23,804 nucleotides of DNA from a virus: positions 1 through 23,804 of the IMG/VR virus record IMGVR_UViG_3300025110_000128; one strand, 5' to 3'. The stretch's first letter is position 1, and every line of letters begins with the position of its first letter. Under the pieces are notes generated by a model that searched no databases, was not told where the DNA came from, and was given only the letters and a program-made list of their open reading frames with translations. This document shows positions 6,303-23,804 of this stretch, one piece after another. Position numbers and translations under genes: made by a program.

Positions 6303-7219
6303 GTGCTCGCCTCCGCTTGAAACTGTGGGCAGTGTTGCATGTAATCACAACGAGAGCACTTCCACCCTTCTCTGCTTCCAGAGTTAACCATATCGAACTG
6401 CTCATTAAGATACATTTTGACCAACTTACCAAGACGAACCTTCATGGCTCTCTCGCTAACTCTTTTGCATTCCTCGTAAGTCATATGGTCCGCTGCACTG
6501 TAACGCCATCCCCAATGAGTAACGTCTCCAGTAAGACCTTTCTCAACAAGCACAGCAGGGTCAGTCATTTCAATGAGCATCTTGTAGTAGGACATCTCCA
6601 TTCGCATATCAGATAACTTGTAAGTCGGATTCCATTTACCTGTCTTCAACTCCATAAGACCAAGACCTCCATCCTCATCTCTGAATACTCGGTCAATGAT
6701 ACCTACCAGTCGAACAGGCACTCCTTCAACTTCGGTCTCTACATCCAATCTAACTTCGTTTGCAACAGGCATAAACTTCTCAGGGTCTGATATCATTAGA
6801 CGTGCAACTTCATTCTTCATCATCCAATCGATGTTGAGATTATAGTCGCGCTCATAGAAGGGCTCATCACGATTTTCTTCTCGTCGTCCCTCAATTAGTT
6901 CTTCTTTGTTAGGAAGAAAGCCGCGCAGTGTTGTTTCTACAGAACGGTTGTTGCCTGAAAGAGCACTTTTGCGCAAGTCTGAAAGCATATCTGTATCAAT
7001 ACGGTCGTAGTATTCTTCTATGGCTCTATGAACATCATCTCCTATAATGAGATAATCATGCATCTCTTGCTTAACATCATGAATCTTACTGAGAAACATC
7101 TGTTGTGCGCACCACTTAGTAGAAGTTAGTGTGGACTTACTAATACGAATAATAATACCATCTTCTCCCATCTCAGGAGTCCATGCGTATGAAGACCCAT
7201 CAGGATAAATGCGATTCAT
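6299..7219 (-). CDS. Cas4/RecB-like PD-(D/E)XK nuclease with Fe-S cysteines
   Basis: A 306-residue nuclease of the PD-(D/E)XK superfamily. Features in order: Cys37 in TKWC, GDDVH (His64), VGIIDR (Asp176), MELKTG (Glu190, Lys192), the MSYYKML helix for the conserved Q/Y motif, and a cluster KCSRCDYMQHC with Cys288, Cys291 and Cys297. One early cysteine plus three late ones is the 4Fe-4S arrangement of Cas4 and AddB-type nucleases. These process DNA ends during recombination or packaging. No cas1 or CRISPR array is present, so a replication or repair role is more likely than adaptation. The ATG at 7219 overlaps the upstream stop as ATGA and follows GGAGGAAGAAGA; an upstream in-frame start would add 17 residues read out of frame from the neighbour. 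Confidence 0.88.
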   Translation of the reverse strand: MNRIYPDGSSYAWTPEMGEDGIIIRISKSTLTSTKWCAQQMFLSKIHDVKQEMHDYLIIGDDVHRAIEEYYDRIDTDMLSDLRKSALSGNNRSVETTLRGFLPNKEELIEGRREENRDEPFYERDYNLNIDWMMKNEVARLMISDPEKFMPVANEVRLDVETEVEGVPVRLVGIIDRVFRDEDGGLGLMELKTGKWNPTYKLSDMRMEMSYYKMLIEMTDPAVLVEKGLTGDVTHWGWRYSAADHMTYEECKRVSERAMKVRLGKLVKMYLNEQFDMVNSGSREGWKCSRCDYMQHCPQFQAEAST

Positions 7220-7413
7220 TCTTCTTCCTCCAAAGGCGTATGATGTTTTAGAAAATAACTTTCTTCCCACTTAGTTGTGTAATTACCTCGTATATTATTA
7301 ACCACTAAAACAGTTATATCTTCTTCGTATACCATAGGGTCTTTTTCTGTTATGACCTCTACAATCTCAACAATAGTTTTTACATGTTTATTCTTCCACT
7401 TTGTTCCTAACAT
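7216..7413 (-). CDS. Unknown beta-rich small protein, 65 residues
   Basis: Not recognised. The 65-residue product is rich in beta-formers (VKTIVEIVEVI, ITVLVVNNI) with a conserved-looking TKWEESYFLKHH near the C-terminus, a pattern reminiscent of small SH3-like or barrel proteins of phages. It ends PLEEEE, where the glutamate codons are the Shine-Dalgarno for the nuclease gene downstream. The ATG shares a TAATG with the gene before it. Confidence 0.65.
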   Translation of the reverse strand: MLGTKWKNKHVKTIVEIVEVITEKDPMVYEEDITVLVVNNIRGNYTTKWEESYFLKHHTPLEEEE

Positions 7414-7613
7414 TATTCTTCCCCCAACATCTTAGTTAGTTTCTCGATAACAACTCCACGGGATATGTGTGGTCCTTGACCCTTCTTGTAGAAGGAGATA
7501 AGTTCCCTCAGTTGATTTTTCAAACCATCACAGCGGCCTCTGTAATAAGCCTCCTTTGCTAAGAGTTCAGTTAAATTATCCTTGGTTACTTTTATTGTAT
7601 CATAGTCGCTCAT
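7413..7613 (-). CDS. Unknown helical small protein, 66 residues
   Basis: Not recognised. The protein is predominantly helical and charged: a possible coiled coil (LTELLAKEAYYRGRCDGLKNQLRELI, residues about 14-39), then a basic linker and a final helix VIEKLTKMLGEE. It may dimerise. The last codons (GGGGGAAGAA) provide the ribosome-binding site for the next gene at a TAATG junction, and its ATG overlaps the MazG-like gene's stop as ATGA. Confidence 0.65.
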   Translation of the reverse strand: MSDYDTIKVTKDNLTELLAKEAYYRGRCDGLKNQLRELISFYKKGQGPHISRGVVIEKLTKMLGEE

Positions 7614-7882
7614 TCTTCTTCCTCCTCCATCATCATACGAAGTAGTATCAAGTATCCAATAAGGTCGTCAACGATATCGATATCGCTCTCGATGCTATCG
7701 TTACCACGAGCAAGACGAGACAACTTATCGTCGATGCGAACACGAATACCTGCTTGTGAATCTAACTTTGAGAATACGCGCAGAGGTTGTTGGACACTAT
7801 CTCCATACTGTTCGTTTTTAATTCTGAGCAGATTTACTACACGCGCAGCAGTTTCAGCAACACGTTTCGCGAAGTCAGACAT
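7610..7882 (-). CDS. MazG-like / DUF1599-type nucleotide pyrophosphohydrolase
   Basis: A 90-residue all-alpha protein of the phage type related to MazG/DUF1599. Typical signs are KNEQYGDS (residues 22-29), PLRVFSK (33-39), RIDDKLSRL (49-57) and the metal-ligand helix DIVDDLIGYLILL (69-81). Enzymes of this class hydrolyse nucleoside triphosphates to monophosphate and pyrophosphate and can remove unusual or damaged nucleotides from the pool. The short length and the EEEEE tail are as in many phage versions; here the tail is also the Shine-Dalgarno for the next gene. The ATG at 7882 follows GAGGTGG and shares TAATG with the upstream zinc-ribbon micro-gene, so it is preferred to GTG at 7891. Confidence 0.8.
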   Translation of the reverse strand: MSDFAKRVAETAARVVNLLRIKNEQYGDSVQQPLRVFSKLDSQAGIRVRIDDKLSRLARGNDSIESDIDIVDDLIGYLILLRMMMEEEEE

Positions 7883-7977
7883 TACCCCCACCTCTTGTTA
7901 CACTCTCGACAGAGTTGAGATATTGGGTGTCGTGGACCCGCTTTACCGCATACAGCACATCTTTTCATACCGGGCAT
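7882..7977 (-). CDS. Zinc-ribbon micro-protein, about 31 residues
   Basis: A short frame between PolB and the MazG-like gene. It encodes a clean zinc ribbon: RCAVCGK, a 12-residue loop with a PRHP turn, then LCREC and a basic tail NKRWG. It ends in TAATG shared with the MazG-like start. Two starts are possible: ATG at 7977 after GGAGTGAT, or ATG at 7968, three codons on, overlapping the stop of another possible micro-frame. The four cysteines in ideal spacing support a real product. Similar free-standing ribbons occur throughout this window. Confidence 0.6.
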   Translation of the reverse strand: MPGMKRCAVCGKAGPRHPISQLCRECNKRWG

Positions 7978-8058: not shown

Positions 8059-10398
8059 TTACCACCATCCGTAGTTCTTTGGTCGTGGAGCACCAAGCGC
8101 CCCATCAAGGTCCCATCCGAGCACTTTGTAAATACCCTTCAACTTAGCCCCAATCATCTTATCGATGATGGTGCTTGTATCTAACGTGAACCCTGAGACC
8201 TCGCTTGGTTCACGAAACGCGATTGTTTCTGTCGGCTCCATACCTCCCGGCACTTTATCGACATAAGTCCACTGCACTGAGTCTCCTTCGTCGAAGGGGT
8301 CGTATGCTATGTTTCTGTTATAGTAATCAGCAGCCTTGCTTGCACCACTTAACGTCTTATATTGTTTGATGGGCATACCAAGCCTTGTGCTCATGGTTAC
8401 CTCTTTCCAATCTATGTCGCCACTCTTGATTCTGCGCACGATAGGAAGAACATGTTCTCTGATGTCTTGTTCAGATGCACCATCAAATATCATATTCAGA
8501 ACATCTTTCTGAATGCCCTTTGTTATTGGAGCCAGCGCAGACCCTTTGAGGAAGTTGGCACTCTTGACCTTTCCAGCATCCTCCACAGGATAAGCAACAC
8601 GTCCAGCGTAGGCATTTGCTCCGACTAGAATCCAACGTGGCATCCACGCCTCTAATTCAGCCACCAATTCTTTGTTGCCTGTGGTCTCTTGAACCACCTT
8701 TGTGATGGCCTCAGCAAGGCCCTCTGCCTCTTCTTGAGGCACCTTGATGAAAGCGGAGTCTGTGAAACCATAGAGAGTCTCGTATCCCATATCTGTTGCT
8801 ACCTTATCGAGTAGACGAATACATCTACGTCCTTCGCTAGTAATGGTGTGGGCGATATCAGCATCAGCCCATCCATATCCAACATGCGCGGTCATCCCAT
8901 ATAGACTCGCCATGACGCGCTTTACTGCTGATTGTGTTGTATTCCACGCAGCACGCTCTGAGTCTGTTTCTGCATCTCTCATTCGTCGTTTACACTCACC
9001 ACGATATTCAAACAGATAATCAACTACTTGAGGAAGTATACCCTTCTGAGTTTGGTCCCAATAGGAACCATTGTCTAATCTAATAATACCCGGTCCCGGC
9101 TCGCTTCTCTTTGTTGTATAGCATAGATTGTATCCTGTGATGAATGATGGATACATTCCTTTGTAATCTATGATACCTACATTCTCGTAAAGACCGGGGT
9201 CCTTGAGAATAAATTCAGCACCCTTCAACTCCTCCTTCTCTACATGAGTTCGGGATGGAGACTTGAGTTCTGTTCTGCGCGAAAGCAATCCACGAGCGAA
9301 CTTTGTAACATTCGTTGTTGACTGCATGCTGACTCCACAGAGTCGAACCATCTCAACATAGAAATCTGTGACGTTACGAGCCTCATCGATACCTCTGAGT
9401 AACTCTGTATCTAGAAGACAATAGTCAACAAAGTCTCCCCAGTATTCATACCATCCATTGTGAACGTCCATCCCTTCGATTTCCTCAGTCAACTTAGAGC
9501 CAAGTTTGAGTTCCTCTGCAATAGTGTTCAGTTTTAGATTCCTTAATTGTCCTCCTCCACTGTCTTTCCATACTCGCTCAAAGCCAGTTCCTGTCTTTTC
9601 ACGAGCAGCAGTATCAAACTGCCAGCGTCCAGCAATAGGTTGGTCGGTAGGGTAGTAGGAGTCCTCTCCTCTCTTGGGTCTGCGCACGAATCCTAACGGA
9701 CTCAAGAGATTAGGTTTCTTGATTCGATTGATAAGATGTGGGATATCAAAGAAACATCCTGCATGAGCAATCATCATGTCTGGGTCTCTTTCGTGAAGAA
9801 AGTCGATGAAATTATCATGCAACTGCCTCTCACTAAAACACAGATGTAGTTCATACTCTACATCACGAACCTTTCTTTGGTGTAGTTCTCTGCTCCTCCC
9901 TGTTAGAGGATATGGGCAGTTGGTTTCTTCGTTAGCCCATGCAAATACAACAGGCATATCGAGGTCGCTATCAATAACTGCAATGACTGTCGTGAAGTTA
10001 TCATCACCTGTATTGCATTCGATATCATACCACCACTTACGAGGCTTCCAGTCAGGCATCTCAGGAACATTCTCCATGAGCCATTGGTCAACGAAAGGTA
10101 TGTCTGCTTCGTATGTCTTGTCGAAGAACTTACTCATGCGCGTAATGTCGAATGGGTTGTCTGTCTCAATCTTGATGAGTGGTGTCTTATCCAACCCTGT
10201 TGCTGTTATGTCTTTGCGCACGGCTGTTCCGGGGAACGACCGCTTGAGTCGCTCTAGTCGGAAGTCAGGTGTGTCCGCAGGCACCCAGAAGTAAGGGTGA
10301 AACTCCTCCCTCTTCTCAATGAGGTTACGGTCTTCATCCCTGTATCGGGAATAAATAATCGGGCATTCTCCATCTCTAAATATTGTATCTACTATCAT
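8059..10398 (-). CDS. polB: Family B DNA polymerase with proofreading domain
   Basis: A 779-residue replicative DNA polymerase, normal length for archaeal PolB and without inteins. The exonuclease domain has ExoI YDIE (Asp125, Glu127), an atypical ExoII AHAGCFFD (Asp218 present but Ala213 where Asn is usual) and ExoIII YCLLD (Tyr326, Asp330). The polymerase domain has motif A IIDYKGMYPS (Asp411), motif B KRVMASLYG (493-501, Ala in place of the usual Asn) and motif C YGFTDS (543-548), where the first Asp of YGDTDS is Phe but the metal-binding second Asp (547) is kept. Catalysis is therefore likely retained with altered geometry. The thumb follows to a GWW end. It would copy the viral genome with the clamp and clamp loader encoded just upstream. 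Start at a TGATG overlap. Confidence 0.95.
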   Translation of the reverse strand: MIVDTIFRDGECPIIYSRYRDEDRNLIEKREEFHPYFWVPADTPDFRLERLKRSFPGTAVRKDITATGLDKTPLIKIETDNPFDITRMSKFFDKTYEADIPFVDQWLMENVPEMPDWKPRKWWYDIECNTGDDNFTTVIAVIDSDLDMPVVFAWANEETNCPYPLTGRSRELHQRKVRDVEYELHLCFSERQLHDNFIDFLHERDPDMMIAHAGCFFDIPHLINRIKKPNLLSPLGFVRRPKRGEDSYYPTDQPIAGRWQFDTAAREKTGTGFERVWKDSGGGQLRNLKLNTIAEELKLGSKLTEEIEGMDVHNGWYEYWGDFVDYCLLDTELLRGIDEARNVTDFYVEMVRLCGVSMQSTTNVTKFARGLLSRRTELKSPSRTHVEKEELKGAEFILKDPGLYENVGIIDYKGMYPSFITGYNLCYTTKRSEPGPGIIRLDNGSYWDQTQKGILPQVVDYLFEYRGECKRRMRDAETDSERAAWNTTQSAVKRVMASLYGMTAHVGYGWADADIAHTITSEGRRCIRLLDKVATDMGYETLYGFTDSAFIKVPQEEAEGLAEAITKVVQETTGNKELVAELEAWMPRWILVGANAYAGRVAYPVEDAGKVKSANFLKGSALAPITKGIQKDVLNMIFDGASEQDIREHVLPIVRRIKSGDIDWKEVTMSTRLGMPIKQYKTLSGASKAADYYNRNIAYDPFDEGDSVQWTYVDKVPGGMEPTETIAFREPSEVSGFTLDTSTIIDKMIGAKLKGIYKVLGWDLDGALGAPRPKNYGWW

Positions 10399-11010: not shown

Positions 11011-11760
11011 TTAATCACCATCTTGGTCTAATGCAATCAACAGGAAGTCCTTATCCACATGGCGTAGAACCATGATGAAACCATCACTCGTGAACACATC
11101 TACAGAACCAGTAGGAACTGTCGCCATAAGTTCAGGGAGCCATTGTCCAAACACTGAGGAGCAATCCTCCCCATCATGTGTATGAAGTTCAGTGGCTACG
11201 CTCATGCGCACTCCTCCTTTCTTGCCTGCTTCTACAATGAACTGTCCTTCTGACGAATCATACTGTGTTGTGTAAATCATATCTTTACCGACAACCTTCT
11301 GCATTCCAACAATCTCCCCTAACCACTTAGAGGTGGTGGAGAAGTATGTCTTGAGTGCCTTTCCTTTGAAGGACTTCCATTGTGCGTTCTCTCCATCTTC
11401 AACTAAGATATTCATATCCTCTATGTTGAGACCTGAGCGTATGTAATTAGAACTAGGCACATCGATGCTACTCATTCCACAAGAGACCTGTAATCTATCT
11501 GGTCTCTGCCATAGACGAACAAAGGATTCCTTTGGTTGCACCTTTAGGAACGATAGCACAGTGTCGATATCAGAGAAGAGAATCTCTCCCTTCTCCTCTA
11601 CGTCACACGCCTCGGACCTATACAGTAGGTGTGTAGGCGTCCCCACTCCTCCTCTGAGAGTCGACTGTTGGGCAACAGCCCGGAGGTCACCGACCCCCGG
11701 ACCGAAGCCACTGAGAAAGGACTTAAGCAGTCCTCCGTTGATGTTGACTCTTGCTCCCAT
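11011..11760 (-). CDS. pcn: PCNA-like sliding clamp, divergent
   Basis: A 249-residue protein of exactly PCNA length. The identification rests on the C-terminal third: a helix-to-strand stretch VFGQWLPELMATVPTGSVDV followed by FIMVLRHVDKDFLLIAL matches the last PCNA domain, which ends in strands and the partner-binding tail. The N-terminus (VNINGGLLKSFLSGF) fits the first clamp helix. The central part is divergent and no single catalytic motif exists in this family. A ring clamp would tether PolB and perhaps the XPF-type nuclease to DNA. Gene context is strong: the clamp loader lies three genes upstream and PolB three genes downstream. The start overlaps the RadA-like gene's stop as TGATG. 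Confidence 0.75.
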   Translation of the reverse strand: MGARVNINGGLLKSFLSGFGPGVGDLRAVAQQSTLRGGVGTPTHLLYRSEACDVEEKGEILFSDIDTVLSFLKVQPKESFVRLWQRPDRLQVSCGMSSIDVPSSNYIRSGLNIEDMNILVEDGENAQWKSFKGKALKTYFSTTSKWLGEIVGMQKVVGKDMIYTTQYDSSEGQFIVEAGKKGGVRMSVATELHTHDGEDCSSVFGQWLPELMATVPTGSVDVFTSDGFIMVLRHVDKDFLLIALDQDGD

Positions 11761-14046: not shown

Positions 14047-14943
14047 TCATTCACCTTTTCCTTTTTTTTGTTCGTTCACCCCACGGTGGAGGGAAGCCAT
14101 CGTGCCCACTAACCAATCTATGAACCCTTCGTCTCCGATGGGCCATTGGTGTGCGGCCAAAACAGCGTCTCCCCAGACGCGGGAATATGTGTGGAATTCC
14201 TCCACAGTCATTGCGTCCCCGACCATGTCGCGGACCTTATCGTGTAATTGTTTCAGCATGTATACTCTGTTTGAGCCTCGTGCTGAAAGATGTAGTAGTT
14301 CTGAGCGAAGGTCTTCCCAGAGACCCCCAGCAAGAGAGAGTGCTGCGTTTGATGCAGCATCATCTCTTACAAGTCCAACCCATTCTGATGGGTCGCTATA
14401 GTGAAGTAGTTTTGTGAGAACACGCATGTCTCCTTGAGCGATAGCAAACGCAGCGCGTCTTTGCTCGCTGGTTGCATCATCTCTCACACCCGTGATGAGT
14501 TCCCCCATCTGAATATCAGTGTAGGCAGGGAAACCAAGATGGTAACACCTACTCTTTAGAGCAGGGATAATCGCATTCTCATTATTTGCTGTAAGGATGA
14601 AGAGAGCGTTTCCTGTCTCCATCATTCGGCGTAGGGCTTCTTGAGCCTGCTTCGTGAGACCATCAGCCTCGTCGAGAAGAATCACTCTCTGTGTGAGAGA
14701 GCGAGTGGTTGTGAGTGTCTTGAGATGAGTGCGCACCATGTCGATACCTCTATCGTCACTAGCGTTCAACTCGTGAATCTCGGCGTTCAGAGCACGAGCC
14801 AAAGCAAGTGCAAGTTCAGTCTTACCCCGACCGGGAGGTCCAGTGAATAGGAGGTCGGGCACCTCGCCCTTCTCCAACATCTTTCTGACCTTCCCAATCG
14901 GGTGGTGTTCATTGTTATATCCAATCATTTGTTCTATGTTCAT
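14047..14943 (-). CDS. rfcS: Replication factor C small subunit (clamp loader)
   Basis: A 298-residue AAA+ clamp loader. RFC boxes are clear: Walker A GPPGRGKT (35-42), NASDDRGID (60-68), Walker B ILLDEAD (88-94), sensor 1 ILTANN (116-121) and the SRC motif ALKSRC (128-133) with the arginine finger. The collar domain follows. Cellular archaeal RFC small subunits are a little longer (about 315-330). It would use ATP to open and place the PCNA-like clamp. No RFC large subunit is seen here, so the complex could be a homomer or include a host subunit. It is the first gene after the AT-rich gap, with the best promoter of the window and GAGGTGA before its ATG, so it probably leads the replication transcript. 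Confidence 0.95.
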   Translation of the reverse strand: MNIEQMIGYNNEHHPIGKVRKMLEKGEVPDLLFTGPPGRGKTELALALARALNAEIHELNASDDRGIDMVRTHLKTLTTTRSLTQRVILLDEADGLTKQAQEALRRMMETGNALFILTANNENAIIPALKSRCYHLGFPAYTDIQMGELITGVRDDATSEQRRAAFAIAQGDMRVLTKLLHYSDPSEWVGLVRDDAASNAALSLAGGLWEDLRSELLHLSARGSNRVYMLKQLHDKVRDMVGDAMTVEEFHTYSRVWGDAVLAAHQWPIGDEGFIDWLVGTMASLHRGVNEQKKGKGE

Positions 14944-15071: not shown

Positions 15072-15434
15072 TCAATAAAATCGAGAATCGAATTCGGAAA
15101 TGAATTCTTCGATATCCTCATGGGTCATTTTTCGCGCGGAGGGCATCTCCATGGTGAAACGCAGGCGCGATAGGTTGCCTCTATCTTTTACTACGTGCGC
15201 GACCGGGCGTAGAAGATTGAGCAAAAGCGCAATCTCTTTCTTATCTCTGAGGATGCGCCCGTTGATTCCCTTATCTCTCAACCACATGGTGAGATGGGGT
15301 TCATCCTCCATCGATGCGTAGACCTTTCTGTGGATTGTATAACCCAACTTGGTCTTAGGGGAAAAGTGAATGCTGGCTTGGAAGCGAGCATCGCGAGCAA
15401 GCCACCCGAGGAAGAAGTCATCACTCAGGTCCAT
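15072..15434 (-). CDS. LAGLIDADG-like single-motif protein
   Basis: A 120-residue protein that resembles a one-motif LAGLIDADG homing endonuclease. Residues 8-16, FLGWLARDA, occupy the place of the LAGLIDADG helix and keep the acidic residue at the catalytic eighth position (Asp15). A strand RFQASIHFSP, the typical LGYTIHRKVYAS, a helix HLTMWLRDKG, GRILRDKKEIALLLNLL, and a C-terminal helix HEDIEEFI follow in the family's alpha-beta order. As a dimer it could cut a palindromic site, or it may be domesticated as a DNA-binding factor. It is free-standing, not in an intein or intron. The ATG at 15434 (after GGAGAG, 14-base overlap with the ligase-like gene) is favoured over 15536, which would translate the neighbour out of frame. 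Confidence 0.6.
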   Translation of the reverse strand: MDLSDDFFLGWLARDARFQASIHFSPKTKLGYTIHRKVYASMEDEPHLTMWLRDKGINGRILRDKKEIALLLNLLRPVAHVVKDRGNLSRLRFTMEMPSARKMTHEDIEEFISEFDSRFY

Positions 15435-16755
15435 GTTCTCTCTCCAATATTTCTGATAGTTGCAGGGCATCACTGAAACCCAGTGATGTATCCATGCGCA
15501 CGAGGTAAGCCCCGTGTAACTTCCCATGTTCCACACGAAGTGCGTGGAACTGTCCTATGAGTGGTGGACTGATATCAGTCCAGACTCTTGGAATGTGAGT
15601 AAAGGCAGGGAGAGTGGGAAGGCTCTCCATCTTTACATTAGCAATGCCTACAGGACTCGGGTCGAATCCATCAAGGGCTTCAATGCGTAACTCCACCCAT
15701 TCCTCATTCTTTTGAAGGCGTGCTCCTGTAATGAGGAGGGGGAGTTCAAAGACACGTCGTGGCATCACAAAACCTCCGACGTGTTGACTGTGAAAAAAGG
15801 GTCGGGTTCCATCGATAAGACGGAGTCTTTCTCCCTTTTCGAGATTCTGAGCAAGAAGACGCATGTGGTCGCTGTCCTTGACTCTCTGAGGAGAGACGCT
15901 TCTGTCCTCATGAGGTTGTTGCCACAAGTCTGGGTCATCAGTTGTGTGGAGCCACGTCGTCACTTCACCGTTCTGGTCAATCTCCACCACACAATCGACA
16001 CTCATGTCTATCTTGGGTGTGATACCTCTGACTCTTGAGCAAGACCAATCGAACACATAAGGTCTCCCTTGTGTTATGTGAGCAATGTATCTATTGCCTG
16101 TTAGTATCTCATAATAAGTATCATCAAATGGCTTCGTCCAGTATTGCCACTGTCTGTAAGATGGCCCCTTGAAACAGTAACCGGGCTCGATAGAAAACTT
16201 CTCTGGTAAGTTACCACGCTGTGCTCTGCGCAGAACCGTGGCTAGTTCCTCTACTGCGCAGGCTGACCTTATTCTTTCAGCACTGTAATTTTCTAATCGG
16301 TGACCGAATGTTCGTATGATACGAGTGCGGGGTATGAGTGGCTTCTCTCCCATTGCTCTATTCCAAAGGACCAGTGCATCGTTTCTACCCATTCTCTTAA
16401 ACACAGCACGGATGTCTGGTGGACTTTTCATATCTCCAAGAGCCTGCACTACATCCAAAGCCTCAGGAATCGTCATAGATTCTTCTGGTTCGTTAGGTGA
16501 TTCAGATGCAAGAGCAGGAACCAACGCTTCGTCGTCGACTAATTCAAACTCCTCTGGGAACATGCCGACGCTACGATGTAACGCTGACATAATATGCTCA
16601 GGTTTGAGTAAAGGTCTACCGTAAAGCAGTGAAAGGAACTCTCCAATCTCATCAATACGAGGAGCAAGAAATGAGTAGAGGATGTCTTCCTTGCGATGAA
16701 CGGCTCTTTCTTGCACAGCAGCAAGAATAACTGTAGCCGCTTCATCCAACCTCAT
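15421..16755 (-). CDS. Divergent ATP-dependent DNA ligase-like protein
   Basis: A 444-residue protein whose order resembles archaeal/eukaryal DNA ligases. The helical N-terminal part (EIGEFLSLLYGRPLLKPEHI near 36-55, then IRAVFKRMGRNDALVLWNRA near 115-134) looks like the DNA-binding domain. The C-terminus (LPLLITGARL near 338-347, then YLVRMDTSLGFSDALQLSEI near 417-436) looks like the OB domain and its arginine-rich end. Between them the adenylation core is degenerate: where KxDGxR should be, the protein reads EILTGNR (216-222), lacking the Lys and Asp. Lys208 in TKPFDD is a possible but poorly placed substitute. It may be an inactive ligase paralogue that binds nicks, or a family that my alignment misplaces. 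No strong Shine-Dalgarno is seen before ATG 16755. Confidence 0.5.
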   Translation of the reverse strand: MRLDEAATVILAAVQERAVHRKEDILYSFLAPRIDEIGEFLSLLYGRPLLKPEHIMSALHRSVGMFPEEFELVDDEALVPALASESPNEPEESMTIPEALDVVQALGDMKSPPDIRAVFKRMGRNDALVLWNRAMGEKPLIPRTRIIRTFGHRLENYSAERIRSACAVEELATVLRRAQRGNLPEKFSIEPGYCFKGPSYRQWQYWTKPFDDTYYEILTGNRYIAHITQGRPYVFDWSCSRVRGITPKIDMSVDCVVEIDQNGEVTTWLHTTDDPDLWQQPHEDRSVSPQRVKDSDHMRLLAQNLEKGERLRLIDGTRPFFHSQHVGGFVMPRRVFELPLLITGARLQKNEEWVELRIEALDGFDPSPVGIANVKMESLPTLPAFTHIPRVWTDISPPLIGQFHALRVEHGKLHGAYLVRMDTSLGFSDALQLSEILEREHGPE

Positions 16756-16770
16756 GGGTTGACCAACAGG

Positions 16771-17088
16771 TTACTCTTCTTCATCCTGTCGGAGTCCGTA
16801 GATATTAACAAGCCCAGAAGTAAGACCAGTGCGAACGTCTTTATCTCTAAACAAAGATGTCCCCCCAGCGACTTGACCCACTACTACAAACCTTTTATTT
16901 CTGAGTAGATTACTTAGGCTATTTACAGTAGGAGCATTTCTCCTAAACTTGTTTGACTCTTCACCTCTATTGCGCATGAACGACTTAGACCATTGCTCAA
17001 CAATACCTCTTGCAGTTAAGGGGCCGTGCTTTTTAATGAGGTCGGCTACTTCTTCTCGTTTCTTCTCGCTGTTCTTACGGCGAGCCAC
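16771..17088 (-). CDS. Small winged-helix-like protein, GTG start
   Basis: A 105-residue basic protein. The N-terminus (MARRKNSEKKREEVADLIKK) leads into HGPLTARGIVEQW, then PTVNSLSNLLRNKRFVVVGQ and a strand/turn, which is the helix-turn-helix plus beta-wing order of winged-helix DNA-binding domains. It ends RQDEEE. It could be a regulator of this block or a DNA-architectural protein. The start is GTG, five bases after the upstream stop's first base and preceded by GAGGAGGAG; no ATG fits. Family membership is by pattern only. Confidence 0.65.
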   Translation of the reverse strand: MARRKNSEKKREEVADLIKKHGPLTARGIVEQWSKSFMRNRGEESNKFRRNAPTVNSLSNLLRNKRFVVVGQVAGGTSLFRDKDVRTGLTSGLVNIYGLRQDEEE

Positions 17089-17090
17089 TC

Positions 17091-17762
17091 TTACTCCTCC
17101 TCATCGATAGGAGTCATAGAAACGAATGTTCCTTGCATATGAGGTGGGACAGCCATATCGTGCCACTCTGTGCCGATAACATCAGTAACAACATTTGTTT
17201 TGTTATCTACCATGTCGATAATATCTTCTCTCGACATAGCCTTGAGTGTATATTTATTGACGTTCCAAGTGTAGAATGAATCCTCCCCAACAAGAAGACT
17301 GTAGTCGATTGGAGACAAAGGCACTGCTTCACTACACTGAGGACAGTGAGCATTTACAGTCCAACGAGGAAACTCTTCCACACCATTTTCTGTGATTGCT
17401 GTATGCATCCCATCGTTGTTCCAGACAGCACGCTCTAAGTCAAAGTTAGCAATTCTCTCATCATTACAATGTGGACAGTCCCATTCAGAAGCAACTTGTT
17501 GCATAGTTTCCATGGCTTCTAAGGGGTCATCAGGTATAACAGCAACATCATCAGTAAAATAATTCCATCCTAATTTTTCTAAGACGATACCAACACGACG
17601 AGCAGGCTCTTTTGCTCTCTCGGTTCTAGACACTAATGATAGAGTCTTATCTTCTGTGCAAAAGAAAGTCATTTCTCCTTCTACCCATGATTTACCCGGC
17701 TCTAGTGTCTCTAGTATAGCCTCTGTCCATTCAATATCTACTTCACTTGGTTCCCAATTCAT
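17091..17762 (-). CDS. Two-CxxC zinc-binding protein, 223 residues
   Basis: Not recognised as a family. The N-terminal 90 residues are acidic and mixed alpha/beta. DCPHC (Cys96, Cys99) and HCPQC (Cys140, Cys143) form a split zinc ribbon with about 40 residues inserted. The C-terminal 80 residues contain helix SREDIIDMVDNK and end PIDEEE. The ribbon suggests nucleic-acid or protein binding. The final GAGGAGGAG codons are the ribosome-binding site of the winged-helix-like gene downstream; the ATG overlaps the gene before it as ATGA. Confidence 0.7.
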   Translation of the reverse strand: MNWEPSEVDIEWTEAILETLEPGKSWVEGEMTFFCTEDKTLSLVSRTERAKEPARRVGIVLEKLGWNYFTDDVAVIPDDPLEAMETMQQVASEWDCPHCNDERIANFDLERAVWNNDGMHTAITENGVEEFPRWTVNAHCPQCSEAVPLSPIDYSLLVGEDSFYTWNVNKYTLKAMSREDIIDMVDNKTNVVTDVIGTEWHDMAVPPHMQGTFVSMTPIDEEE

Positions 17763-19884: not shown

Positions 19885-20051
19885 TATATCATCTCCTTGC
19901 CACCCAAGGCTCCTACGAAACGTGTTTCGATACGGTGCATTTCATCAACCCAATCATCAGTAGGCATATTCAGTCCATTGCGGTTTGCATTTTTGACTAA
20001 ATCAAACAAACATGCATAGCGTTCGAGTAGTTCTCGCACTGTCATTTTCAT
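19884..20051 (-). CDS. Unknown helical micro-protein, 55 residues
   Basis: A 55-codon gene with ATGA overlap at its start and TAATG overlap at its end. The product is helical (MTVRELLERYACLFDLVKNA, then DDWVDEMHRIETRFVGAL). A second in-frame ATG two codons on (MTVRE) is an alternative start. Without this gene the region would look like an unexplained 160-bp gap. No family recognised. Confidence 0.62.
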   Translation of the reverse strand: MKMTVRELLERYACLFDLVKNANRNGLNMPTDDWVDEMHRIETRFVGALGGKEMI

Positions 20052-20302
20052 TCTTCTTCCTCCTCGTATACTTTGTATGTCTGATTGATGTTTATTTTAG
20101 TTCCACATCGTGTGCATATAACACTAAATATCTCTAACTTATCAAAGGTAGAGGTATAATCAAACGACCAAAAGTGCTGGTCTTCTGTTTGACATTCTAC
20201 CATTTTCGTCAGTCTTTCTCGTTCGTCAGCAGCATGTTTTGCCTCATTTGTGAGGTGATGTATTCGCTGCTCTAGTTCATTCAGTTCTTTCAAGGGGTCC
20301 AT
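20048..20302 (-). CDS. Coiled-coil plus CxxC protein, 84 residues
   Basis: Residues 1-36 form a charged coiled-coil helix (DPLKELNELEQRIHHLTNEA); Cys37 and His43 with CTRC (63-66) could form one zinc site; the end is YEEEEE, whose codons hold the GGAGGAAGAAGA ribosome-binding site of the next gene. Its own ATG is formed within GAAGAATGG of the upstream gene, which reads on for 13 bases of overlap. Function unknown. Confidence 0.65.
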   Translation of the reverse strand: MDPLKELNELEQRIHHLTNEAKHAADERERLTKMVECQTEDQHFWSFDYTSTFDKLEIFSVICTRCGTKININQTYKVYEEEEE

Positions 20303-20847
20303 TCTTCTTCCTCCAGTGGTTCTTCCCAGCCTTCAACAAGGTCAGGATTTAGTTTCGCGTGGCGCTCCTCCACGACTTCCATGTTTCTCAGATGTGTTTT
20401 ACCTGAGCAAAGCGTCATTGTATTTTGTAAGTTTTTGTCTATTAGGTTTTCAATCGATTCGATGCGTGTCTGATGCTTACTTACCCAGAGGGGGTGGTTT
20501 TGCACAAGTTCTGTTTGGTCAACCCATTCTCGGAAGTTCTCCCAGAACTGTTTCTTGTATTCAATAGTAGAATCACGCATACTAAAATCAAGTATCTCAA
20601 GTAGTAATGACTCGACCAAACGAGTCGGCCTCTTTTGTCTGATGCGCTGATTAAAGTCAGCGCCTCTTACATAATCAGCAGACAGAGTGGCTGTAGCGCC
20701 TGTCTCCATGTCCACTACTTTCAACTTTGGTTTCGTTCGATGGTCAAGTGTCTTATCGACTCTATCATCTTCCTGCTTCTTCATCTCTTTCATAAGTTCG
20801 CGCAGAAGTCTGTGCGAACCTGTAGTCCATTCTCCTTTTGTGTTCAT
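20290..20847 (-). CDS. Unknown basic/helical protein, 185 residues
   Basis: Not recognised. A charged, mainly helical protein: LLRELMKEMKKQEDDRVDKT near the N-terminus, a short beta region (KLKVVDMETGATATLSADYV), and long helices (RLVESLLLEILDF, EYKKQFWENFREWV, SIENLIDKNLQ). There are no metal or nucleotide motifs. The ATG at 20847 follows GGAGGAAGAAGA and overlaps the upstream stop as ATGA; an in-frame start at 20871 is the neighbour's coding region. The C-terminus EEEEWTP arises because the usual ATGA junction is ATGG here, so translation continues three codons past the glutamate run. Confidence 0.68.
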   Translation of the reverse strand: MNTKGEWTTGSHRLLRELMKEMKKQEDDRVDKTLDHRTKPKLKVVDMETGATATLSADYVRGADFNQRIRQKRPTRLVESLLLEILDFSMRDSTIEYKKQFWENFREWVDQTELVQNHPLWVSKHQTRIESIENLIDKNLQNTMTLCSGKTHLRNMEVVEERHAKLNPDLVEGWEEPLEEEEWTP

Positions 20848-21419
20848 TCTTCTTCCTCCTCGCACTGGCAACCGCGCACATCATTTGCACATTCACCACA
20901 TTCGTGGCAACCTTCGCAACAATAGCACATGTAGCAGACAAAATAACCATTACAATTATACATCATTTCATGCCCATTTGAAAAGCGCTCACACTCATCA
21001 CATTCTATGTGAGAATTATCACGAACACCATTGAGTTGAACAGCATAATCACCATCAACCCATACTTCAAGGCTAGGTTGTGTGCCCCAGATGGAACCAT
21101 TAGAGCCAGCCCACCCCATATCGTCTCGTTCGCAGGCTTCGATAGGAACGATAGCAAGAAGTCCTGCATCAACAGCAAGACTTACTCTATTCCCTTCGTC
21201 GTCTAACAGGTTATCAAAGTTCCAACAAGTGTCTCCACCGGGACTATCAAAGACCTGAACGTCTACTTTACTGCCATCCCTGAGAGGCCATCTTAATCTT
21301 ATACCGTGGGGGTTGTTACGATTATTCGGCTCTTCTTCTTTTGCCCAAAGCATTTCACAGAAGTCATGCCATCGGTCATCATCAATAACATAACATGGGT
21401 CACCAACGTAAAAGTTCAT
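20844..21419 (-). CDS. GDPCYVI protein with cysteine-rich zinc tail
   Basis: A 191-residue protein. The N-terminus MNFYVGDPCYVI followed by a Trp/Phe helix, then VQVFDSPGGDTCW and VSLAVDAGLLAIVPIEAC, is a pattern I recall from unannotated phage proteins. The last 50 residues are extraordinarily cysteine-rich (CDEC, then CYMCYCCEGCHECGEC, GCQC), enough for two or more zinc sites, before EEEEE. Binding to nucleic acid or protein is likely; the role is unknown. ATG 21419 follows the GGAGGAAGAAGA box; the longer frame from 21488 is the upstream micro-gene read out of frame. Confidence 0.7.
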   Translation of the reverse strand: MNFYVGDPCYVIDDDRWHDFCEMLWAKEEEPNNRNNPHGIRLRWPLRDGSKVDVQVFDSPGGDTCWNFDNLLDDEGNRVSLAVDAGLLAIVPIEACERDDMGWAGSNGSIWGTQPSLEVWVDGDYAVQLNGVRDNSHIECDECERFSNGHEMMYNCNGYFVCYMCYCCEGCHECGECANDVRGCQCEEEEE

Positions 21420-21595
21420 TCTTCTTCCTCCAGTTGCCAGTGGTCTGCCTTTGATTGTGCACGCACATAATTGTGTATAAACTCGCAAAAATCTACAACC
21501 AACTCCTCAGGTATTGTTACCAAAGTATATTTTGTGTGTTGTTTTGTTGTCCCCGTGGGGCATCCCGTTCCTATTTGTATGGTTATCTTATTCAT
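21416..21595 (-). CDS. Unknown micro-protein, 59 residues
   Basis: A 59-codon gene with ATGA overlaps at both ends, filling the space after the SNF2 helicase. The product starts with a strand (NKITIQIGTG), then YTLVTIPEELVVDFCEFI and a helix NYVRAQSKADHWQLEEEE. The EEEE codons are the ribosome-binding site of the next gene. No family recognised; two scattered cysteines do not form a pair. Confidence 0.65.
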   Translation of the reverse strand: MNKITIQIGTGCPTGTTKQHTKYTLVTIPEELVVDFCEFIHNYVRAQSKADHWQLEEEE

Positions 21596-23538
21596 TCCAT
21601 CACCTTCTTTCCTGCACGAAGTTCCTCAGCAAGGTGCTTCGCAATTGTTTGTTTGTCATTTGCTGTGCCGTCAAGCGCAGCCTTGATAATACTCTCTTTC
21701 TGTGAAAGTAAAATATCGAAGTGAGTATCGATTGAGTCTTTGAGACTCAGTATCACTTGTTGGCAGACAGACGACTCCTGAGTCATTCTCCTAACTCTGG
21801 CTGCTGCTTGTTGTTCCCATGCAGGAACCCACTGTCGTTCAACGAACAGTGTTGTATCTGCGTGGTCTAGGTTCACTCCCTCTCGCATCGCAGTAGTTGA
21901 ACAGATGAGGAAGTCCACACTTCCCTGTTGGAAGTGATGGATATGTTCCTCTCTGTCTTTCATGCTTGTGTCTCCTGTAATGAGACGAGTAGAGGGATGC
22001 AGTAAACTGAGACTCTCCCAGATTGCATCCAGCACATCTCTATGGTGCGCAAAGATAACGAGAGACTTTCCTGTCTGTTTGAGATATTGACTTGCCCACT
22101 CTACAGCAGTATCAGCCTTGCTCAATCCTGCTGCATGTCTCAACTCAGTGAGCATGTTGAGAACGAAACCGGGAGGCATTCCTCCCTCGACTGTTCTATA
22201 GTGGTCCCACTCATTCATAAGGTGTTGATAAGTAATCTCGTAATGATTATCTGTGCTCTCAACCTCAATGATATTCTGAATAAGAGAAGGCATCTGTCCA
22301 CTTAGACGCTCATCATCCATAGTGCGACGAAGCATAGTGTCCATGAGTAATTGCTTGAGAGGCATTGTCTGCCCATCCTCGCTATGCTCAATGTTACTTG
22401 CACCATTGAAATCCCACCCATGTCCATTGTGAATCGCTGCACAATACTTCTTACCAAAGTGATATCGATTATCAAAATGCGTAGGTTTGAGCATGTTTAG
22501 AACAGGGAATGCCTCGATAGGGCGATTAAGAATAGGTGTGCCCGACAGACAGATGATACCATTAACACAAGACTCACTTGCTAAGGTTCTCGTAGCAATA
22601 GACTTTTTGGTTTTCTCGTCCTTTAGATTATGGCACTCGTCTATAATGATACAGTCATACCTATCGTTAAGAAGAGTATCAATACGATGAGTAAGGATAT
22701 CATAATTGATAACGGTGAAATCACTTACATCATATTCTCCATTTCTCCCAGAGATTATACTCACAGTAGAATTAGTCCACTTCTTTACTTCCTTTGCCCA
22801 GTTTGCTTTAACAACTGCTGGGCAAATGATTAGTGTTTTACTAAATCCTCCTGCGACTGAGCAAAGCATGGCTTGTAATGACTTACCCAAACCCATACCA
22901 TCAGCGATGAGTATACGTTTTTGTCCACCAGCCATGAACATGTTTGGTGCAACCCACTGATAGGGTCGAATCAACTCTGCGCTCTTAATACCCGGTAACC
23001 ATAGAGCAGGTGCATCTACTGCACTCGAAAGTTCTACACGTTTTGCTGTCGCTTCTCCTTGGTCTTGCACACCCTCAGTGTTGAGTATAGCATCAGCCAA
23101 CTCAGAATAGATTGGCTGCAATCCTTTTGCTACAGCAGCAGCGTTTGCTATGGGTATTCTCCATTGCTTTGTCTCCTTCTTCCATCGACCATTGCCAGCA
23201 GTTTTGATGACTGCGTTAATGTCTGCATAGTCAGAGCGAAAGGGCCAACTCATGAGTAAACCTGCACCTTTCTTCACAATGATAATCTCTCCAGCCGCAC
23301 CCTTTTGATTAGCATTAACATCAAGGTCGAAGTGAAAGCCGAAACCCTCCAATACACTCAAAGCAATTGTAAGGTCTGTTGCATTGTCCTTAACAGACCA
23401 TGACTTTCTCTCTGCATCCCACTTGCAACGTGGGAAAGGCAAAGCAGCCTTGAGTTCATCTTTGGCTTGAGGGTTGTATGAAAAATCCAGTGCAACTCTC
23501 GGTCCGTAATCGTCTTTGTATCGTGTCCATGTAGTCAT
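21592..23538 (-). CDS. SNF2-family (SMARCAL1-like) helicase
   Basis: A 648-residue superfamily 2 ATPase. The N-terminal 190 residues carry two repeats that resemble HARP-type substrate domains (CKWDAERKSWSV near 38-49 and GRWKKETKQWRIP near 117-129). Helicase motifs follow: Q-like PYQ, motif I ADGMGLGKS (212-220), motif II IIIDECHNL (DECH, 300-303), motif III LSGTP (331-335), motif IV VIFAHHRDV, motif V STTAMREGVNL and motif VI QQAAARVRR (the usual Gly is Ala). This is the architecture of SMARCAL1/annealing helicases, which rewind RPA-coated DNA and remodel forks. An RPA-like protein is encoded in the same genome. SNF2 proteins are common in large tailed viruses. Start overlaps the upstream gene as ATGA. 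Confidence 0.92.
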   Translation of the reverse strand: MTTWTRYKDDYGPRVALDFSYNPQAKDELKAALPFPRCKWDAERKSWSVKDNATDLTIALSVLEGFGFHFDLDVNANQKGAAGEIIIVKKGAGLLMSWPFRSDYADINAVIKTAGNGRWKKETKQWRIPIANAAAVAKGLQPIYSELADAILNTEGVQDQGEATAKRVELSSAVDAPALWLPGIKSAELIRPYQWVAPNMFMAGGQKRILIADGMGLGKSLQAMLCSVAGGFSKTLIICPAVVKANWAKEVKKWTNSTVSIISGRNGEYDVSDFTVINYDILTHRIDTLLNDRYDCIIIDECHNLKDEKTKKSIATRTLASESCVNGIICLSGTPILNRPIEAFPVLNMLKPTHFDNRYHFGKKYCAAIHNGHGWDFNGASNIEHSEDGQTMPLKQLLMDTMLRRTMDDERLSGQMPSLIQNIIEVESTDNHYEITYQHLMNEWDHYRTVEGGMPPGFVLNMLTELRHAAGLSKADTAVEWASQYLKQTGKSLVIFAHHRDVLDAIWESLSLLHPSTRLITGDTSMKDREEHIHHFQQGSVDFLICSTTAMREGVNLDHADTTLFVERQWVPAWEQQAAARVRRMTQESSVCQQVILSLKDSIDTHFDILLSQKESIIKAALDGTANDKQTIAKHLAEELRAGKKVME

Positions 23539-23804
23539 TCTTCTTCACTCTCCATAAAGCAGATTAGTTCAGCGCAAATGTCGGGATAGTCCTCTAACTT
23601 AGACCACAACTGTTTCCACTCACGCTCTATCTCATGCAAACGCTCAATCTCTTCAAGGAGAAGTGGTGCGTCTGCTATGAGTTGTGCATCAACACCAAGC
23701 ACCCGCTGTGCAACCATCCCATCACCACTCTCAATAGTGTGTTCACCGAGTTCCTCATCATATTCATTCGTCCACGGTGCGGGTGTATGTCCTTCGTATT
23801 TGTC
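23535..23804 (-). CDS. GHTPAPW-motif protein, 5' part outside window
   Basis: An open frame runs from the right edge to TGA at 23537-23535, giving 89 visible residues and no start before the edge that is needed. The edge sequence DKYEGHTPAPWTNEYDEE matches a common short phage protein pattern (GHTPgPW, later DAQLIADAPLLLEEI). An internal ATG at 23717 would cut off this conserved part, so the gene is treated as partial. The C-terminus is helical (RLHEIEREWKQLWSKLED) and ends ESEEE at an ATGA overlap. The function of this family is unknown. Confidence 0.75.
   Translation of the reverse strand, partial: DKYEGHTPAPWTNEYDEELGEHTIESGDGMVAQRVLGVDAQLIADAPLLLEEIERLHEIEREWKQLWSKLEDYPDICAELICFMESEEE

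Follow-up and report, generated by a model that had tools for sequence, protein, structure and literature searches.

A DNA ligase-derived protein without the motif I lysine in the replication operon of a putative magrovirus

The protein encoded at positions 15421 to 16755 (minus strand) of the window, that is, of the whole 23,804-base virus record, a genome fragment carrying a long minus-strand operon, is a ligase-derived pseudoenzyme. It is not classed here as a DNA ligase because the motif I lysine, which defines the ATP-dependent enzymes (PF01068 and relatives), was looked for and is replaced by isoleucine. The reading we favour, with a probability of roughly 0.6, is that of a ligase that lost its lysyl-adenylate chemistry and persists as a DNA-binding but non-catalytic component of the viral replication machinery. 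Few enzymes are as uniform as DNA ligases, and to our knowledge every known ligase needs the motif I lysine; a viral family with a three-domain ligase body minus this residue would be a rare ligase pseudoenzyme in a replisome. The features expected of a nucleotidyltransferase-fold pseudoenzyme were found together: the fold is present, the catalytic lysine is absent and the gene is under purifying selection.

A ligase architecture without catalytic lysines

The ligase-like gene starts with ATG, has no internal stop codon, could be aligned with its homologues and encodes 444 amino acids. Motif I lies at residues 216-222 (EILTGNR; 16090 to 16110, minus strand) and is in ungapped register with the ligase of Pyrococcus furiosus (2cfm, sequence confirmed by phmmer), K249-Y-D251-G252-A-R254-V-Q-V-H258 corresponding to I217-L-T219-G220-N-R222-Y-I-A-H226. 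That is, KxDGxR has become ILTGNR, with Ile217 (codon ATA at 16105-16107) in place of the adenylated lysine and Thr219 in place of the aspartate, while the likeness to the archaeal enzyme is retained at the glycine, arginine and histidine (G220, R222 and H226). The sequence-only reading had reported a motif with neither Lys nor Asp, and the alignment bears this out. A sequencing error was ruled out, given that the isoleucine recurs in independent records with ATA, ATT or ATC codons.

Single-sequence searches of the protein against Pfam, PHROGs, NCBIfam, PADLOC and PDB sequences returned nothing ligase-like, and tblastn against a phage collection gave no match. No ligase-family match was obtained in the window, nor for any of eight family members at E-values up to 10, all remaining below the curated cut-off. 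Homologous loci were collected from IMG/VR, with identities to the window protein from 98 down to 47%. A first profile comparison made with these loci was only suggestive (P 0.026, with one of 100 shuffles reaching 25.9). What decided the comparison was the addition of L080, a remote syntenic orthologue found by a clamp-loader search, which is 24% identical and matches the family HMM with an E-value of 1.4e-39. The enlarged profile aligned with archaeal ligases colinearly across all three domains (query 1-439 against P. furiosus 1-548; E 2.7e-4), scoring 40.8 against a maximum of 21.9 among 100 column-shuffled controls.

Structure prediction gave a concordant picture. The full-length AlphaFold2 model, for which four sequences were used, had low confidence (pLDDT 41.5), yet DNA ligases occupied the first 29 places of its Foldseek search, led by those of Thermococcus, human and Pyrococcus (best E 2e-5). 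A second model, covering residues 190-444 and built from eight sequences, reached a pLDDT of 60, and 122 of its residues superposed on the P. furiosus nucleotidyltransferase domain at 2.7 Å with a Z-score of 8.8. A Z-score near 8 can reflect a common arrangement, but here the match list consisted almost purely of ligases, the 50 structural matches listed being all DNA ligases except for four rows of snurportin-1 or its complexes. Taken together, the family profile and the two models show that the protein is of ligase descent and has kept the three-domain order (DNA-binding, nucleotidyltransferase, OB) of archaeal ATP-dependent ligases such as those of Thermococcus gammatolerans (9dfa) and P. 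furiosus. The ligase-like shape and domain order, which had been proposed from the letters of the window alone, thus held up in both kinds of comparison.

The helical N-terminal domain (residues 1-189; 16189 to 16755, minus strand), the counterpart of the ligase DNA-binding domain, was assigned from the profile alignment, the helices of the model and conserved basic residues, among which Arg133, Arg145, Arg148 and Arg161 are invariant in the family alignment. It is followed by the nucleotidyltransferase-fold domain (residues 190-338, boundaries approximate; 15742 to 16188, minus strand), assigned from the second model and its VIA superposition on the P. furiosus ligase, and by an OB-fold-like C-terminal domain (residues 339-444; 15424 to 15741, minus strand), for which Foldseek, the domain model and the profile alignment agree. 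The protein is shorter than the archaeal ligase, which has 561 residues, and a segment between motifs I and IV is shortened.

Differences from the archaeal enzymes extend beyond the Lys/Asp to Ile/Thr changes of motif I, since the lysines of motifs IV, V and VI are replaced as well and the protein falls below Pfam detection. In place of the EGxxxK of motif IV stands KGERLR (residues 307-312; 15820 to 15837, minus strand), with E changed to K and K to R; relatives have EGEVLR or similar, and column 312 is Arg or Lys in the family. This register was assigned manually within the interval that separates motif I from the OB domain, with a model strand at 309-315. The motif V counterpart, FVMPR (residues 329-333; 15757 to 15771, minus strand), also placed by hand and in a region of low model confidence, has Met and Arg for the two lysines, and in the motif VI counterpart, AYLVRMDT, the lysine of RxDK is Thr423. 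For motifs IV to VI the register, set by hand with the help of model strands, is less certain than for motif I. Not a single lysine is invariant in the family alignment. Lys208 was ruled out as a substitute nucleophile, being Val in six of the eight aligned family members, and any other shared lysine was ruled out likewise, none being invariant.

Variation and selection within the family

At the position of the motif I lysine, Ile is found in the window protein and in L001, L002, L004, L032 and L035, Leu in L080, and Lys in L033 and L034. Inspection of this residue across homologues therefore upheld the loss of the lysine for nearly the whole family, with the exception of these two members, and the alignment indicates that the loss is a family trait rather than a peculiarity of the window contig. 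In the two lysine-bearing proteins motif I reads EKSSGAR (L033:2792-4129) and EKSNGAR (L034:8001-9332), and the remaining catalytic motifs are as degenerate as in the rest of the family. In a FastTree phylogeny L035 adjoins the L033/L034 pair and L032 lies outside both, with node supports of 0.998-0.999. This suggests a single secondary I-to-K change in L033/L034 as the simplest account. Because the tree is unrooted, lysine would be ancestral only if the root lay on the branch of the lysine pair, against which the Leu of L080 argues.

In the next most distant syntenic member, L081:4151-5452, the alignment lacks the motif I stretch, although a match to the family HMM persists. At the syntenic place in L090 (4334-5533) there is a 399-amino-acid ORF with only a marginal match to the family HMM (E 0.24). 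The nucleotidyltransferase part of these two counterparts is shrunken or barely recognisable. A further homologue, L047:7941-9343 in a record of 79 kb, is interrupted immediately downstream of motif I by a frameshift that probably reflects an error in sequencing; being broken near that motif, it was excluded from the alignments.

The ligase-like protein is under strong purifying selection, with dN/dS values of 0.04 (window/L001), 0.12 (L033/L034) and 0.09 (L034/L035); two wider pairs were saturated. It is thus constrained although, judging from its motifs, it cannot self-adenylate by the known route, and its conservation across virus relatives indicates that it probably serves a purpose other than DNA sealing.

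The replication operon

In the order of transcription the operon encodes an SNF2 helicase, small ORFs, an HNH-type protein, the ligase-like protein, a 120-amino-acid ORF, an RFC small subunit, proteins of 445, 317 and 249 amino acids, a family B polymerase, a PD-(D/E)XK nuclease, a weakly primase-like protein, an ERCC4-type nuclease and a thermosome-type chaperonin. The RFC small subunit, or clamp loader (14047 to 14943, minus strand), matches the PHROGs clamp loader family with an E-value of 9.5e-39 as well as Pfam AAA, and the polymerase (8059 to 10398, minus strand) matches Pfam DNA_pol_B (1.6e-28). By appearance the 445-residue protein would be a single-strand binding protein, the 317-residue one a RecA/RadA-like ATPase and the 249-residue one, encoded at 11011-11760, a sliding clamp; searches of the libraries and the PDB returned no match backing these names. 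At every locus examined the ligase-like gene stands ahead of RFC in the replication operon, and the order ligase-like gene, RFC, 430-450-residue protein, ATPase-like protein, protein of about 250 residues and PolB is shared by close relatives and by the remote L080, L081 and L090.

The 120-residue ORF (15072 to 15434, minus strand; weak DUF7945 match) has its ATG overlapping the end of the ligase-like gene, to which it is likely translationally coupled, and its product is a possible partner of the ligase-like protein. A similar ORF follows the ligase-like gene in L004, L032-L035, L080, L081 and L090 and is not listed in L003. On the other side, the ORF list places a 105-residue ORF upstream in the same direction of transcription (16771 to 17088, minus strand). 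Many genes of the window end in three to five Glu codons (e.g. GAGGAGGAAGAAGAATGA), namely those at 7216-7413, 7610-7891, 16771-17088, 17091-17762, 20048-20302, 20844-21488 and 23535-23717, and these terminal runs seem to serve also as the ribosome-binding site for the overlapping gene that follows.

Proposed role and alternative explanations

A DNA-binding replisome subunit is suggested by the architecture (a helical domain with four invariant arginines, a nucleotidyltransferase core without catalytic lysines and an OB domain) in combination with the position in the genome. The protein is predicted to still hold nicked or primed DNA through its Arg-rich helical domain and OB domain. It could act there as a placeholder or clamp, organising intermediates of the lagging strand or passing nicks to the host ligase, and may contact the viral clamp or clamp loader; sealing would be performed by the host's own ligase.

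The main rival is that the protein is a decoy or nick protector, occupying nicks or the clamp and so denying the host's repair machinery or ligase access to viral or host DNA. The same anatomy, a ligase-type DNA-binding domain without the chemistry, would serve such a role, but the fixed place in the replication operon alongside clamp loader and polymerase better suits a replisome subunit than an antagonist, and we consider the decoy role unlikely. Less likely still is a ligand binder of another kind built on the nucleotidyltransferase fold, as exemplified by snurportin-1, whose m3G-cap-binding domain (1xk5), like the window protein, has this fold without ligase chemistry and appears among the structural matches (Z 8.5, 123 residues, 3.3 Å). 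Snurportin-1, however, is a eukaryotic RNA-cap binder, has neither the N-terminal nor the OB domain of ligases and is encoded outside any replication operon, whereas the window protein retains both domains and has DNA replication genes as neighbours, so that we give this explanation little credence. That there is no ligase kinship at all and the resemblance arose by chance would fit the lack of any single-sequence database match; given a profile score far above 100 shuffles and two models whose matches are almost exclusively ligases, it is the least probable of the explanations considered.

Two further explanations retain some ligase activity, and both appear very improbable. Motif I lysine mutants of some ligases can still seal pre-adenylated ends, and the protein might accordingly seal nicks already bearing a 5′-AMP without adenylating itself. 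An invariant acid, Asp254, and an Arg or Lys at the motif IV position remain for such a reaction, but the window protein has other residues in place of the lysines of motifs V and VI and the Glu of motif IV as well, and L081 is without the whole motif I stretch. Equally slight is the chance that the family is mixed, Lys217 of L033 and L034 being the working lysine of an active ligase and Ile a recent local loss. The sequences YYEKSSGAR and YYEKSNGAR are compatible with a minimal KxxG motif; against this, the pair is nested in the tree with L035 and then with L032, both of which have Ile, the remote L080 has Leu, and the other motifs of the two proteins are equally degenerate.

Source virus and a second ligase-derived domain

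Genes typical of the Magrovirales replication module (PolB, primase-like protein, ERCC4 nuclease, clamp loader and chaperonin) are present in the window, and the 118-kb relative G003 carries opposite modules. The Magrovirales are marked by such a replication module, an opposite structural module, a genome of about 90-118 kb and hosts among the Poseidoniales; going by its genes, the source virus resembles a magrovirus, and it apparently infects marine archaea. Genome contigs searched with a profile of the family alignment contained no relative, and a search of them with the window thermosome gave no match; these searches thus yielded neither a cellular nor a proviral copy, nor a link to a host.

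Magroviruses are said to encode a DNA ligase (ICTV profiles PMC10768690 and PMC12999244; survey PMC10160649), and this ATP-dependent enzyme has been placed beside the prohead protease (PMC7318539). In related records, which may be incomplete (G003 is without end repeats), we looked for domains of ATP-dependent and of NAD-dependent ligases, for the N-terminal domain of ligases and for RNA ligases, and used a six-frame ligase HMM, the families varying by record. No canonical DNA ligase of either cofactor type, and no canonical RNA ligase, was found in G001 (70 kb), G003 (118 kb), G005 (63 kb), G006 (42 kb) or G009 (79 kb). Strings of the form K.DG.R do occur in G006 and G009, but they belong to a helicase-like ORF and to the prohead protease rather than to ligases. 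A reliance of the virus on the host ligase is consistent with the lack of a canonical ligase in these possibly partial records of up to 118 kb. In every relative read, the ligase-derived sequences found either have no catalytic lysine or, in two proteins that are otherwise degenerate, carry it. This bears on the published view that magroviruses need little help from the host in replication because they encode a DNA ligase of the ATP-dependent type; if the reliance on the host is true, these viruses, an abundant group infecting marine archaea, would depend on the host for nick sealing.

The sole ligase-domain match in the searches of these records was a degenerate domain adjoining the prohead protease in G003 and G009. 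The gene annotated as the magrovirus ATP-dependent DNA ligase (PMC10768690, PMC12999244, PMC7318539) resembles the window gene in belonging to the same virus group by gene content and in being ligase-derived, but it is another gene, and at its place the relatives have a domain, part of a giant protein, in which Trp occupies the lysine position; we infer that the annotated ligase is probably this dead domain. There may be an even chance that DNA ligase has turned structural twice in these viruses, as a Lys-free replisome subunit and as a Trp-for-Lys domain of a giant protein of the morphogenesis module, with no working ligase encoded, which would contradict the published annotation, and the host sealing the nicks. 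The second domain was seen at L005:1321-2754 (G003:C1:30522-37709), L049:523-1995 (minus strand), L051-L068 and L113. Its profile matches ligases over the nucleotidyltransferase and OB domains (E 1e-6) and does not match the family of the window protein. Trp replaces the catalytic lysine in all 19 copies read (SWPAGTR, SWADGTR, SWWDGYR), and the Gly and Arg of KxDGxR are kept at all of 18 loci, L054 reading WADGTR and a further record, G012, WWDGYR.
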